Assembly (NCBI GenBank): GCA_018607135.1
Contig: JABBCA010000090.1
Span: 1 to 61,157 of the forward strand
Source: Opitutales bacterium
GTDB lineage: Bacteria; Verrucomicrobiota; Verrucomicrobiia; Opitutales; Coraliomargaritaceae
Reading direction: 5' to 3'
DNA length: 61,157 bases
Shown here one piece after another: positions 4,055-61,157 of this stretch. The translations under genes and the position numbers were made by a program. The notes under the pieces are model-generated. The model did no database searches, had not been told where the DNA came from, and was given only the letters and a program-made list of their open reading frames with translations. Position 1 is the first letter of the stretch. The number at the start of each line of letters is the position of its first letter.

Positions 4055-5452
4055 ATGAAACGGCTCACTCTTTCTGTTCTAATAGGGCTTAGCTTCTCGT
4101 TATTGGGCACGAGTGCCAGCGCGGTCTCGCTTACCAATCGAGAGGGAAAAACGATTGAAGTCGAAATTCTAGAAGTCGAAGAAGCCCGCTTGCACATCCG
4201 CATGGAGAATGGTGACGAACTGTGGTTTGAACGAAACTTACTCTCAGATAAAAGCCAAGCGCTCCTTGAAGACTTACAGAATAAGGATAGAGATATTTAC
4301 TTAGCGATTAATCACCTGCTAGGCATCCCACTGTTGAAAGATAACCTGTTGTGGGATGACACCGACGGAGAGGTCGCAGATCGTCTCAACTGGCCAAACG
4401 AATCGAGAACCAGCACACAATCTAGCTATCGCAGCTACCCAAGAAAAGAGTATCGCATACTCGCTAGTCGCCCCTACTCCGCAGCGCTTTACGGCGATCA
4501 AGGCAAGGCCCATAACATCAGTATCGTCTTCGCGAATAAAGGCGACTTTAAGTTCAGCCCCGAGCCGACAGATAGCGAAATTAGCGATATGGAGCAAGCG
4601 ATTGAAGCGGACCTTAAACAAATCGAATCCTTGCTCACACAACAATTAGGCGATCCTGATCGCCAACAATTCGGTGCTGGACGAGGCATTAAGCAACTCA
4701 TCCAACGCTGGGATTGGAAAGGTCACGCCTTCTTGCTCGCATCTCAAGATGGTGAATACGTGAATCTAAAAATAATGACGACAGCTGCGGCCGACAACAA
4801 AGGCAGAGGTGAAAAGTTATCGGATGCAGCTCTACGGAGCCTAACCACTGAAAAGTTAATTCAACGAGACAATGGCGACGTCGTCGTAGGAGACATCCCA
4901 ATGGTCAACCAAGGACCTAAGGGTTACTGCGTGCCTGCTACCTTTGAACGCTATCTTCGCTACATGCAGATCCCTGCAGACATGTATATCCTTGCGATGG
5001 CGGGCCAGACGCAGGTCGGAGGTGGCACATACTTGAACGAAATCATCGATTCCATCAGCGGCTATATTTCGTCGCAGAGTCGCTCAATGAAAGAATACCA
5101 AGAGCCTATAAAGATCCGCACTGTGCAGAAATACATCGATAAAGGCTTACCGATTATTTGGACCATGTTTTCGTCTAGTGCTTACAATAAATATTCAAAT
5201 CAACGCACGATCGATCGGCAGCAAGTCACCGACTGGGAAAGCTGGGAAAAGCGGGTAAAGTCTGAGGCGCGCTCATTAGAGCTCAATAGAGACATACTCG
5301 CCGGTCACGCTTGTCTGATAATCGGCTACAATAAAGAGACTGATGAAATCGCAGTCAGCGACTCTTGGGGGCCCACTTACCGCGAGCGCTGGATCTCCGT
5401 CGAGCAAGCCGAGCAAGTCTCACAAGGCTCGATCTATGTGATTGGATTCTAA
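4055..5452 (+). CDS. Secreted SHD1-domain / C39-like cysteine peptidase, 465 aa
   Basis: A signal peptide is clear: basic MKR, a hydrophobic core and small residues (SASA) near residue 23. Residues about 25-70 (TNREGKTIEVEILEVEE...) look like the SHD1 domain found in planctomycete and verrucomicrobial extracytoplasmic proteins. The C-terminal part is papain-like, C39_2 type: Cys292 in GYCVPAT, His418 in AGHACLIIGYN and Asp436 in SDSWG. These are the expected Cys-His-Asp/Asn residues in the right order, so the enzyme should be active. It is predicted to be periplasmic or surface exposed. The middle region, about 75-285, has no recognised domain. The stop codon overlaps the stop of the convergent methyltransferase-like gene. 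Target unknown; it is not fused to an ABC transporter, so a bacteriocin-leader peptidase is unlikely. Confidence 0.78.
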   Translation: MKRLTLSVLIGLSFSLLGTSASAVSLTNREGKTIEVEILEVEEARLHIRMENGDELWFERNLLSDKSQALLEDLQNKDRDIYLAINHLLGIPLLKDNLLWDDTDGEVADRLNWPNESRTSTQSSYRSYPRKEYRILASRPYSAALYGDQGKAHNISIVFANKGDFKFSPEPTDSEISDMEQAIEADLKQIESLLTQQLGDPDRQQFGAGRGIKQLIQRWDWKGHAFLLASQDGEYVNLKIMTTAAADNKGRGEKLSDAALRSLTTEKLIQRDNGDVVVGDIPMVNQGPKGYCVPATFERYLRYMQIPADMYILAMAGQTQVGGGTYLNEIIDSISGYISSQSRSMKEYQEPIKIRTVQKYIDKGLPIIWTMFSSSAYNKYSNQRTIDRQQVTDWESWEKRVKSEARSLELNRDILAGHACLIIGYNKETDEIAVSDSWGPTYRERWISVEQAEQVSQGSIYVIGF

Positions 5453-6156: not shown

Positions 6157-6355
6157 AGATGCAGCCCGTAGATTCGCAGAGCACTTGGCAAGACTAAGTC
6201 GATGTGAACACCCAATCGACTGAATTTGACTCAACAAAAGTGCTGTTCGTTTCCCTACGAATACGAAAGATTTTTAGACTCGTTCTAGGGATGTGAATAA
6301 CAAACCTAGAAAATGATTTGCAGGATCGATACGCTAGGTTGATCGTCTCCTCAAC

Positions 6356-7513
6356 ATGACCGACACGCTTTACAATTTCGACAACTGCCCAGACCGCACG
6401 GGCTACGGCAGCCTCAAATGGGACAAATATAAAGACAAAAACATACTACCACTCTGGGTCGCAGATATGGACTTTGTCTCCGCGCCCGAGATTATTGCGG
6501 GTCTACAAAAGCGCCTCGACCATCAAATTTTTGGCTACACCGTGCCCTTTGAAGCTCCCGTGCAAGCCGTGCTCGACTATCTTGAACGGGCACATGGCTA
6601 CCCAGCTAAAGCACACTGGCTTAATTTCCTCCCAGGTCTCGTGCCTGCAATCAACCTCTGCTGTCATGCCTTCACTGAACTCGGTGACTCTGTGATGACA
6701 GCCACTCCTGTTTATCCACCCTTCCTCTCGGCCCCCGACTATGCAAAGCGCGAATTGATTAAAGTCCCTCTCTGCCTGAACCCAGACGACCAATGGACAC
6801 TCGACTTCGAAGCAATGGAAGCAGCAGTCAAACCAAGTACCAAAATTTTTGTGCTCTGCAGCCCGCATAATCCAGTCGGCCGTGTATACACTCGCGATGA
6901 GCTCTTAAAAGTCGGTGAATTCTGTGTGCGTCACGACTTGATCCTCATCTCCGATGAGATCCACTGCGACCTCGTTTTTGACACATCCAAAAAACACATT
7001 GTCACCTCTACACTCAGTGAAGAAATCGCCGCGCGCACCGTCACCTTGATGGCTCCAAGCAAGACCTACAACCTACCAGGCCTCGCTTGCGCCTTCTCTG
7101 TGATCGAAGACACTAAGTTACGCCTTCAATTCCAAAAAAGCATTCGCGGTATCATTACCGAGGTCAATTGTTTCGGCTATGCTGGTTGCGAAGCCGCCTA
7201 CAACCTTGGCGAGCCCTGGCGTCAGCAGCTGCTTACTTATTTGCGAGGCAACTACGAACTACTTTACAAATTTATCAACGAAGAGCTCTCAGGCATCACC
7301 TTCCGTCCAATGGAATCGACCTACCTAGCGTGGTTTGACGTGAAGGAGTTGGGGCTCGAAAACCCTATACAATTCTTTGAGGATAACGGCGTCGGCCTCA
7401 CCGATGGCGGCCCCTTCGGCGGACAGCAACACGTGCGGCTCAATTTCGGTTGTCCACGCAGCCGCCTCATCGAAGGCCTCGAAAAAATGCAAACAGCGCT
7501 GGAGAACCGATGA
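6356..7513 (+). CDS. patB: PLP-dependent C-S lyase / aminotransferase, MalY-PatB type, 385 aa
   Basis: Fold-type I PLP enzyme. The N terminus with WVADMDF is characteristic of the MalY/PatB group, as are the SPHNPVGRVY motif and the SDEIHCDLVF motif, whose Asp binds the PLP ring nitrogen. Lys236 in APSKTYNLPGL forms the Schiff base. The length agrees with E. coli MalY (390) and Bacillus PatB (387). The group cleaves cystathionine or cysteine-S-conjugates to pyruvate, ammonia and a thiol (cystathionine beta-lyase activity), in the cytoplasm. The gene is followed three bases after the stop by a REPIN-like repeat and then hslR. Confidence 0.88.
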   Translation: MTDTLYNFDNCPDRTGYGSLKWDKYKDKNILPLWVADMDFVSAPEIIAGLQKRLDHQIFGYTVPFEAPVQAVLDYLERAHGYPAKAHWLNFLPGLVPAINLCCHAFTELGDSVMTATPVYPPFLSAPDYAKRELIKVPLCLNPDDQWTLDFEAMEAAVKPSTKIFVLCSPHNPVGRVYTRDELLKVGEFCVRHDLILISDEIHCDLVFDTSKKHIVTSTLSEEIAARTVTLMAPSKTYNLPGLACAFSVIEDTKLRLQFQKSIRGIITEVNCFGYAGCEAAYNLGEPWRQQLLTYLRGNYELLYKFINEELSGITFRPMESTYLAWFDVKELGLENPIQFFEDNGVGLTDGGPFGGQQHVRLNFGCPRSRLIEGLEKMQTALENR

Positions 7514-7516
7514 CTC

Positions 7517-7579
7517 GTAGGGGCGCAACTTGATGCGCCCGCACATACGTCCAACGGGCGCGTCAAGTCGCGCCCCTAC
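7517..7579. repeat. REPIN-like element: two GTAG-headed hairpins in inverted orientation
   Basis: The element begins GTAGGGGCG and ends with its complement CGCCCCTAC. Each half is a 25-base unit that starts with GTAG and then folds into a hairpin with GGGCGC / GCGCCC arms. The second half, read on the minus strand, matches the first at about 23 of 25 positions. A GTAG tetranucleotide followed by a hairpin is the classical layout of REP sequences mobilised by RAYT (TnpA-REP) transposases, and two in opposite orientation form a REPIN/BIME. It fills nearly the whole gap between the C-S lyase stop (7513) and hslR (7583). It may also act as an mRNA-stabilising or attenuating hairpin. A relative lies at 60175-60234. 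Confidence 0.75.
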
Positions 7580-7582
7580 ACG

Positions 7583-7987
7583 ATGCAAACACCCTCGATA
7601 GACGAAAACCTCGCTCCCGTCCGCATTGACAAATGGCTTTGGGCGGTGCGCATCTACAAAACGCGAAGCGACGCCTCTGAAGCCTGTCGAGGATCCGCCG
7701 TGCGTATCAACAATGTAATCGCTAAGCCATCCAACAGGGTGCGGATCGGTGATACCATCATTGCGCGCACCAAAGCGATCACTAAGACTTTACACGTCAC
7801 CGACCTCACTGAGAAACGTATCGGTGCTTCCCTCGTCCCTGCATTTTACGAGGATCACACTCCCGAAGAAGAACACGAGGCCGCCCGCGAGAAACGCGCG
7901 AATGCAAAAATCTTCAGCCACAAAGGAAGTGGTCGTCCAACTAAAAAAGACCGAAGAGAGATCGAAAAATGGATCGGCTCAGATTAA
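7583..7987 (+). CDS. hslR: Hsp15-like S4-domain RNA-binding protein, 134 aa
   Basis: Starts shortly after the REPIN-like hairpin. The S4 domain occupies about residues 12-60: RIDKWLWAVRIYKTR, then SEACRGSAVRINN and PSNRVRIGDTI. This is the Hsp15 arrangement, with a basic C-terminal tail (KRANAKIFSHKGSGRPTKKDRRE) that is standard in HslR and ends near 135 aa. Family knowledge: Hsp15 binds stalled 50S subunits carrying nascent peptidyl-tRNA during heat stress. It may be co-transcribed with the upstream C-S lyase, with the repeat hairpin between them modulating expression. It is convergent with the PEP-CTERM gene 52 bases downstream. Confidence 0.9.
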   Translation: MQTPSIDENLAPVRIDKWLWAVRIYKTRSDASEACRGSAVRINNVIAKPSNRVRIGDTIIARTKAITKTLHVTDLTEKRIGASLVPAFYEDHTPEEEHEAAREKRANAKIFSHKGSGRPTKKDRREIEKWIGSD

Positions 7988-8039
7988 CCTGGACCCATAG
8001 TTCTGACAATGGGGAGGCGTTCAGCTATGCTGAATCAAA

Positions 8040-9338
8040 CTAGCAGAAGAATGCAAAGCAGCGTTTGAAACGCTTGCGTTCACGCCAACCAATGAGCATC
8101 GCCAAACAAACTGTGGCCGCCACGGCACTAGGCTCTGGAACAGGAACAAGGCCACCGGGAACAACTTCACCATCGCCAAGAATCTGCCCAAAATAGACGC
8201 CTGGTGCCAAACCATTAGGGTTAACGAAACGAATTTGGCTTAATTGACCCGCAGTTAATCCGCCTGAAGTCGTACCAAAGTAAATTTGATCATCACCACC
8301 GCCAGTTCCTAATGTCCCCTTCCAGTTTTCGATACTCAGTATTGTGCCGCCAGTCCACGCCGTAGCTGAGGCACTCGCCACCCTCATAGTCACTGTTCCA
8401 CCAGTGCCCAAGTCGATCGTGGAATCTGCGGACAGAGTTAGAGTCTTTCGAAAGGCTGCAGTTTGAGCTCCAGCATCAGCGAAGAGTAAGGTGCCTCCTT
8501 GCATCTCCAAGGCAGTCTGTTTCGAGGTACCACTCGGATCGACGATAATGTCGCTGCCTGTATGAGTCAATAAAAGCGTGCCAGAGATCAGACGGACACC
8601 TGGCATGTCTTGAAGTGTGCCTTGGGCTTCAAAGGTATTGGCAGCATCCAGTTGAACCTGAAAAACAGCGCTGGAGCCAGTGGTGTTATCAAAGTTAAGG
8701 GATTCAGTTGCGGTGATGTCGGAACTTCCCCGCATAACGATGTCCTTGGCATTACTGTTGAAGGATATTGTCCCGTTAAATAGCAAGCCTCCAGTACCTG
8801 AATCAAAAATCAACCGCTCCATCGGGCTACTTCCACCTTGAGCAGCAGAAATAAAATCCATATCAAAGGTGATCAGGTTGCTACTTTGGTTGCGAATGCC
8901 ATAGAAATCACCTGGATCAGTTAAACCAGCAGAAACGCCCAGCACCTCGAAAGTGTTCGTTCCGTCATTAGTAAAGACATATGCACCAGCATTCGATGCG
9001 ATATCAATAAAGCCGACAGGTTGGACGTCACTATTGTTACCTTGATCGAGATTGACTATGTAATCGGGTGCCCCGCCAGTCTCAGCACCGAATAGAAAAG
9101 TATCTGTGCTGGCTCCACTGTTGGGGGTTGGAGGCGCAGAGTTACCCGCCCAATTGGCATTGGTGCCGATGTTGTTGTCCGAACTTCCATCCCATGTGAA
9201 GGTTGCTCCCGACGAAGCCAATGGTAAACAAATCGCGATTGTGACGATCCCCATCCATGCTGATGCGGATAAAGCCGAGCCCAATAATTGAGACCGTGCA
9301 CAGCCTGACGCTTCTACATTTCGCTGAAAAATTAACAT
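8040..9338 (-). CDS. PEP-CTERM surface protein, autotransporter-like strands, 432 aa
   Basis: The C terminus shows a PEP-CTERM sorting signal: Pro-Glu-Pro at about 401-403, a hydrophobic stretch (AVAATVCLAMLIGW) and then a basic tail (RERKRFKR). An N-terminal signal segment lies at about residues 15-45 (ASAWMGIVTIAICLPLASSGA). Between them are Gly/Thr/Ser-rich strand repeats starting FTWDGSSDNN and ending GVYFGQILGDGEV, typical of verrucomicrobial PEP-CTERM proteins with autotransporter-associated strand repeats. It should be secreted, processed at PEP by the exosortase encoded divergently next door, and attached to or released into the extracellular matrix. The ATG at 9338 is chosen over the GTG at 9419 because it places the signal sequence normally. 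Two cysteines near the C terminus are an oddity. No ligand can be inferred. Confidence 0.82.
   Translation of the reverse strand: MLIFQRNVEASGCARSQLLGSALSASAWMGIVTIAICLPLASSGATFTWDGSSDNNIGTNANWAGNSAPPTPNSGASTDTFLFGAETGGAPDYIVNLDQGNNSDVQPVGFIDIASNAGAYVFTNDGTNTFEVLGVSAGLTDPGDFYGIRNQSSNLITFDMDFISAAQGGSSPMERLIFDSGTGGLLFNGTISFNSNAKDIVMRGSSDITATESLNFDNTTGSSAVFQVQLDAANTFEAQGTLQDMPGVRLISGTLLLTHTGSDIIVDPSGTSKQTALEMQGGTLLFADAGAQTAAFRKTLTLSADSTIDLGTGGTVTMRVASASATAWTGGTILSIENWKGTLGTGGGDDQIYFGTTSGGLTAGQLSQIRFVNPNGLAPGVYFGQILGDGEVVPGGLVPVPEPSAVAATVCLAMLIGWRERKRFKRCFAFFC

Positions 9339-57309: not shown

Positions 57310-61157
<3,848 letters not shown>

Follow-up and report, generated by a model that had tools for sequence, protein, structure and literature searches.

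The gene for a PatB-family C-S lyase and the gene for an HslR/Hsp15-like protein are separated in an Opitutales bacterium (assembly GCA_018607135.1) by a short palindromic stretch. This raises the question of whether the stretch is a regulator of the two genes or a mobile repeat, and of why changes on one arm of its stems are matched on the other. We analysed it within a window of 61,157 nucleotides (contig JABBCA010000090.1, C50 of genome G000 in our numbering), to which positions refer unless another contig is named. The features are the following.

6356 to 7513, plus strand: upstream gene, PatB-family C-S lyase (TIGR04350, 429.6 bits, cut-off 340)
7517 to 7541, plus strand: left REP unit, type A (GTAG tag, 7-bp stem GGGCGCA/TGCGCCC, loop ACTTGA)
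7542 to 7554, plus strand: spacer of 13 nt between the REP units
7555 to 7579, minus strand: right REP unit, type B (GTAG tag, 7-bp stem GGGCGCG/CGCGCCC, loop ACTTGA)
7583 to 7987, plus strand: downstream gene, S4-domain HslR/Hsp15-like protein (PF01479 over its cut-off; PRK10348 67.6 bits, below its cut-off of 148)
60175 to 60199, plus strand: REP unit of type U in the long uvrA reading frame, with a decayed partner ending near 60234, seen by eye

The element at 7517-7579 is a closed REPIN, in which two GTAG-tagged REP units with 7-bp stems stand in inverted orientation within 63 bases; its identification as a REPIN in an earlier note on this DNA is therefore borne out. Each unit is 25 nt long and made up of GTAG, the stem and the loop ACTTGA, which in the left unit occupy 7517-7520 (GTAG), 7521-7527 (GGGCGCA), 7528-7533 (loop) and 7534-7540 (TGCGCCC). 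The unit sequences are GTAGGGGCGCAACTTGATGCGCCCG for type A (plus strand) and GTAGGGGCGCGACTTGACGCGCCCG for type B (minus strand), and the two halves differ at 2 of 25 positions, both of which belong to one compensatory pair (A-T vs G-C). As read directly, the TGA stop (7511-7513) is followed by CTC (7514-7516), the element, ACG (7580-7582) and the ATG at 7583, so that the placement of the element 3 bases after a stop and 3 bases before a start was also right. When inverted repeats of at least 14 nt were searched up to a distance of 120 nt, the element was the longest and most complementary of the four listed (25 nt, 92%). The fold of 7505-7590 had a z of -8.27, with 0/200 shuffles equally good, and the best single-strand fold of the element was one long hairpin (RNA, -48.5 vs -29.9 kcal/mol for two unit hairpins; DNA parameters, -28.8 vs -18.7). 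At gathering thresholds, the only Rfam match was a tRNA at the window edge.

The combination of GTAG with a short palindrome recurs in many dispersed copies. The exact 9-mer GTAGGGGCG has 69 sites in the genome against 23 for the backward control, and 57 of the 69 are REP units while 12 are chance sites. Within the window alone the 9-mer is not significant (10 sites with up to one mismatch vs 8.19 expected), and the exact site at 4469-4477 on the minus strand was discarded as a chance site, being without a REP hairpin and inside a coding frame. The loci around the 69 exact sites and around Y1-transposase genes contain 72 units that depart from one of three consensi at no more than 4 positions, 66 of them of type A or B (32 distinct) and six of type U, so the present element and the uvrA copy, which the earlier note allowed might be the only two, are not. 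A one-strand scan of 219 kb of shuffled letters gave no unit within 7 mismatches of the consensi. Note that gathering units around exact GTAGGGGCG sites and RAYT genes partly selects the outer 5' stem columns but not the inner ones. A covariance model of the unit gave 79 matches at E up to 0.01, which include U units and a redundant contig pair (C21/C96), in a search that scored 150 of 1755 first-look candidates. The ten units at distance 6-7 were left out of the covariation counts, one at distance 6 being kept for REPIN pairing; 6 of the 9 at distance 7 result from reading a unit in the opposite register.

Inverted doublets are the common unit, as the genome's units can be paired into 29 closed REPINs, 63-94 nt long. 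When the array at the RAYT1 gene described below is left aside, 50 of 52 non-redundant A/B units have a pyrimidine before GTAG, compared with 5 of 12 chance sites (p 3.9e-5). Across the order, exact A/B units were found in 2 of 223 genomes, this one (29) and its congener G001 (4), yet the sole RAYT match of G001 is of the other kind.

The order of the C-S lyase gene and hslR is itself found in the family, as seen among the 17 hslR loci listed from 22 of 29, this genome included. Five relatives without a repeat there (L077 and L081-L084) have a gap of 6-15 nt, and the gap in this genome minus the REPIN would be 6 nt, the comparison being with other species. The same-genus genomes G001 and G002 have a different inverted repeat in the gap (L070, L071), whose arm in G002 has 24 sites in that genome with up to one mismatch, against 0 for the control. 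Given this other repeat family in two sister species, the gap may be a repeated target for repeats. This second palindromic family, with arms like AACATCGAACGTCCAAC, has 34, 24 and 24 sites in G000, G001 and G002, respectively (up to one mismatch, control 0). For annotation, the sequence upstream of hslR is better taken as inserted repeat DNA than as a native leader.

We then looked for an enzyme that could act on such units. PF01797 gave 13 matches in the genome, which we read as ten genes. One of these, RAYT1 on contig C64, has arrays of A/B REPINs on either side, and its frame extends into one of the arrays; a RAYT gene flanked by the same REPs is thus present. RAYT1 scored E 6.2e-22 and 78 bits with the model of REP-associated tyrosine transposases, just under the cut-off of 80, and 22 bits with Y1_Tnp of Pfam, just under the cut-off of 23. 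By itself RAYT1 gave nothing at E 0.001 by phmmer against the PDB, and a profile of 15 RAYT1 relatives had 4er8 (TnpA_REP) as best match at E 1.9e-16. The residues H72, H74, Y123 and N127 (H-x-H, Tyr, Asn), which have catalytic roles in the family, are invariant in 15/15. The gene accordingly belongs with the RAYTs by its Y1/HUH fold family, H-x-H motif and catalytic Tyr. The seven nearest of 52 named loci all have GTAG units of the GGGCGCA stem kind adjoining the gene; six have them on both sides and L151 on one. Six of these seven hold an identical unit, GTAGGGGCGCAGTCTTGCTGCGCCC, and L156 has variants in which both arms are altered. A tree placed RAYT1 outside a group of RAYT2 and RAYT3 (92/88), with no further resolution.

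Another Y1-transposase gene, L038 (C64:46670-47279), is flanked by hairpins such as GGTTGCGACAGAGCGCAACC, which are without a plain GTAG tag, and one such hairpin also adjoins a B unit at C106:126704.

The comparison of the present element with the uvrA copy, from which the earlier note had deduced compensatory changes, proved to be of a different nature. The uvrA unit at 60175 has the stem GGGCGTCA/TGACGCCC, which extends to 9 bp with a TT loop. It differs from the left unit at five positions in three mirror-image column pairs, of which one goes from C-G to T-A, another from A-T to C-G, and the third is one-sided (A.A to A-T) and lengthens the uvrA stem. RAYT2, on contig C15, is flanked by units with 9-bp stems and TT loops like the uvrA unit. 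Similar units, in some cases with a single mismatched stem pair, accompany its relatives in G001, G004 and G051 (48-52% identity). Because the units flanking RAYT2 resemble the uvrA unit, 7517 and 60175 represent two REP types with two RAYTs, each type being linked to its RAYT, as far as neighbourhood indicates. The paired stem changes noticed earlier are therefore real, but they were drawn from a comparison of two REP families, the uvrA unit being of the second type with another RAYT; the compensatory case within one family is the difference between A and B inside the 7517-7579 element. A verrucomicrobial genome that holds two RAYTs together with two related REP types offers a natural test of how RAYTs discriminate between hairpins.

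The uvrA frame itself encodes 1850 aa (57310-61157 in the window and onwards, C50:57310-62862) and comprises two tandem UvrA copies. The linker between them holds the REP unit at 60175, and a repeat piece at C50:61934, where the second palindromic family has a site, is also in frame. In L115 (G001), L117 (G004) and L114 (G051), RAYT2-type genes share an open frame (638, 673 and 757 aa) with the end of an AMP-ligase-like protein, the two being joined by REPs. As this neighbour recurs in three species from two genera, a gene fusion or read-through mediated by REPs is suggested. The neighbour is presumably MenE-like, judging by a motif.

To see whether the stems are kept paired within a family, as the earlier note had proposed to check genome-wide, we counted stem cells in the 66 A/B units, and covariation was found. 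Among the 32 distinct units, 95.1% of 224 stem cells are paired, and 19 cells are double-sided against a shuffled mean of 6.1, with 0/500 shuffles as high; with a sliding stem partner as control, at most 55.4% were paired. Stem pairing is thus kept through changes on both arms. Since the copies are related, these figures speak for pairing being kept and not for a number of restorations. Double changes fall at 3 of 7 stem pairs, a number reached by 76/500 shuffles and not unusual, and the A/B pair, which may be one old change, supplies 14 of the 19 double-sided cells. Compensated types in this genome are T-A for C-G at two pairs in addition to the A/B pair, and further ones occur in other genera. 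Family-wide, 14 genomes had a match to a pattern that left three inner columns per arm free, and among the matches listed 13 of these genomes (one has no listed unit) gave 53 distinct units. In these, 87.8% of 477 cells are paired and 51 cells are double-sided vs 19.2 after shuffling (0/500 as high), the number of double-changed pairs is unremarkable (454/500 shuffles), and mismatches at two inner pairs amount to 21 and 20 of 53 cells.

Pairing could be kept in the small unit hairpins or in the long hairpin of the whole REPIN. In the 29 REPINs, Watson-Crick cells number 385/406 for unit hairpins vs 339/406 for the long hairpin, and 296/308 vs 264/308 when the RAYT1 array and redundant copies are removed. 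This preference arises because A-B heterodimers weaken the long hairpin: the 14 heterodimers have 190/196 vs 160/196, while six homodimers have 80/84 for both. Once the A/B pair is removed, the two structures are nearly equal (330 vs 320 of 348). The data therefore favour the unit hairpin through one pair, and the long hairpin is also compatible with them. We thus favour the small unit hairpin as the structure that appears to be conserved, a reading that rests almost wholly on the A/B pair.

We further examined where the elements lie relative to genes, as called by a simple codon-score gene caller. Between called genes are 34 of 44 elements, 18 of them convergent and 16 same-direction with 0 divergent; 3 fall within genes and 7 at the edge of a contig. 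Of the 23 closed REPINs that lie away from the two RAYT loci, 18 have an end no more than 15 nt from a called stop codon (17/22 without the redundant contig); the RAYT1 gene was uncalled and its array is left out of this count. As this position is typical of the family, lying right after a stop does not by itself point to a role at hslR, which the earlier note had considered. The GTAG end of a REPIN also seems to provide the TAG stop of a neighbouring gene (distance -4) on contigs C3, C15, C64, C87 and C106.

The element might instead be kept as RNA, its hairpin slowing the terminating ribosome or protecting the upstream mRNA, uncoupling hslR translation and setting the ratio of the two proteins. 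The near-stop positions, the lack of any element between divergent genes (0/44) and the greater stability of the long hairpin agree with such a role. In E. coli, moreover, the gene upstream of a REP is translated less when the REP is no more than 15 nt from a stop, according to Liang 2015 as cited in PMC12306157; an effect on the C-S lyase gene is therefore a fair prediction, and effects of the REPIN on neighbouring genes are possible. Nevertheless, mismatched stem cells have no G.T excess (13 G.T vs 9 A.C, p 0.52), this REPIN is absent from the C-S lyase/hslR gap of the relatives examined, exact units occur in so few genomes of the order, and the A-B pairs weaken the very hairpin that is most stable, so that we regard an RNA function as the reason for its maintenance as unlikely. 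A role as transcription terminator of the C-S lyase gene is highly improbable. Although a strong GC-rich hairpin stands right after the stop, no T run follows it, none of the three terminator-like sites in 6200-8200 is at the element, and its copies are dispersed in many gene contexts; an intrinsic terminator, which takes a hairpin and a T run, was accordingly rejected. The earlier note had left a choice between a RAYT substrate and a functional RNA hairpin: the RAYT gene embedded in the same REPINs upholds the former, and for the latter neither a G.T excess nor a terminator-like site at the element is seen.

The paired changes could also reflect a few old unit types that were copied often, without continuing selection on the stem. 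This agrees with the large share of double-sided cells due to the A/B pair and with the near equality of unit and long hairpins once that pair is removed. On the other hand, several distinct compensated types exist, here and in further genera, and compensated variants stand beside the RAYT1 relative L156, which makes this explanation rather improbable. The evidence speaks strongly for mobile DNA rather than a dedicated regulator, and we consider it highly probable that the element is a RAYT-dependent, non-autonomous mobile repeat inserted between the C-S lyase gene and hslR. Under this explanation, a REPIN would have been inserted into the short gap, and in single-stranded DNA each of its two inverted units would form a hairpin with a GTAG tag. 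The RAYT, a Y1/HUH enzyme whose gene lies on another contig, would bind and cut the unit hairpin and so move the element; the stem-arm changes would be matched because of this binding and cutting, which we infer. Any effects on the C-S lyase gene and hslR would be side effects.

A more tentative idea, which we think doubtful, is that the paired changes do double work, keeping a perfect unit hairpin for the RAYT and at the same time keeping the partners unlike (A vs B), while swaps between A/B and U would re-address a REP to another RAYT. The A/B difference would then avoid a perfect 25-bp hairpin and give the element a left and a right end. Heterodimers make up 19 of 26 A/B-typed REPINs (p 0.029), or 14 of 20 (p 0.12) when the RAYT1 array is left out together with a redundant contig and a tandem copy, as in the reduced counts of Watson-Crick cells and of the base before GTAG. 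If true, this idea would answer the question of heterodimer preference, for which PMC3733652 offers no obvious explanation, and would make that old question testable.

Taken together, the element is a real REPIN of known kind with conserved stems, and its features can be set beside systems already described. The GTAG REPs of Di Nocera et al. 2013 (PMC3733652), which include those of Opitutus terrae (Verrucomicrobia), share the tag before the stem and the inverted homo- and heterodimers. They are also alike in having alternative complementary stem residues, positions next to 3' gene ends, the TAG of the tag as stop codon in other species, and REPs inside uvrA; ours is likened by description to the REPs of that work, which has 24 consensi. 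Pseudomonas fluorescens SBW25 REPINs (Bertels and Rainey 2011, PMC3116915) have the same inverted doublets with a spacer, link to a RAYT and long hairpin, but there compensatory changes are reported for the spacer part of the long hairpin, and those counted here lie in the unit stems. Compensated changes in REP stems were already published (PMC2817692, PMC3733652), as were those of the long REPIN hairpin (PMC3116915). In the RAYT/TnpA_REP systems with cognate REPs of Nunvar et al. 2010 (PMC2817692), the RAYT gene is flanked by inverted REPs, as here, although the stem and loop sequences differ from those given for the systems of PMC2817692 and PMC8266576. According to PMC8266576, group 3 TnpA_REP enzymes depend on GTAG, on bases of the loop and on a stem without breaks, a broken stem reducing cutting, and the compensated stem changes fit this TnpA_REP biochemistry.
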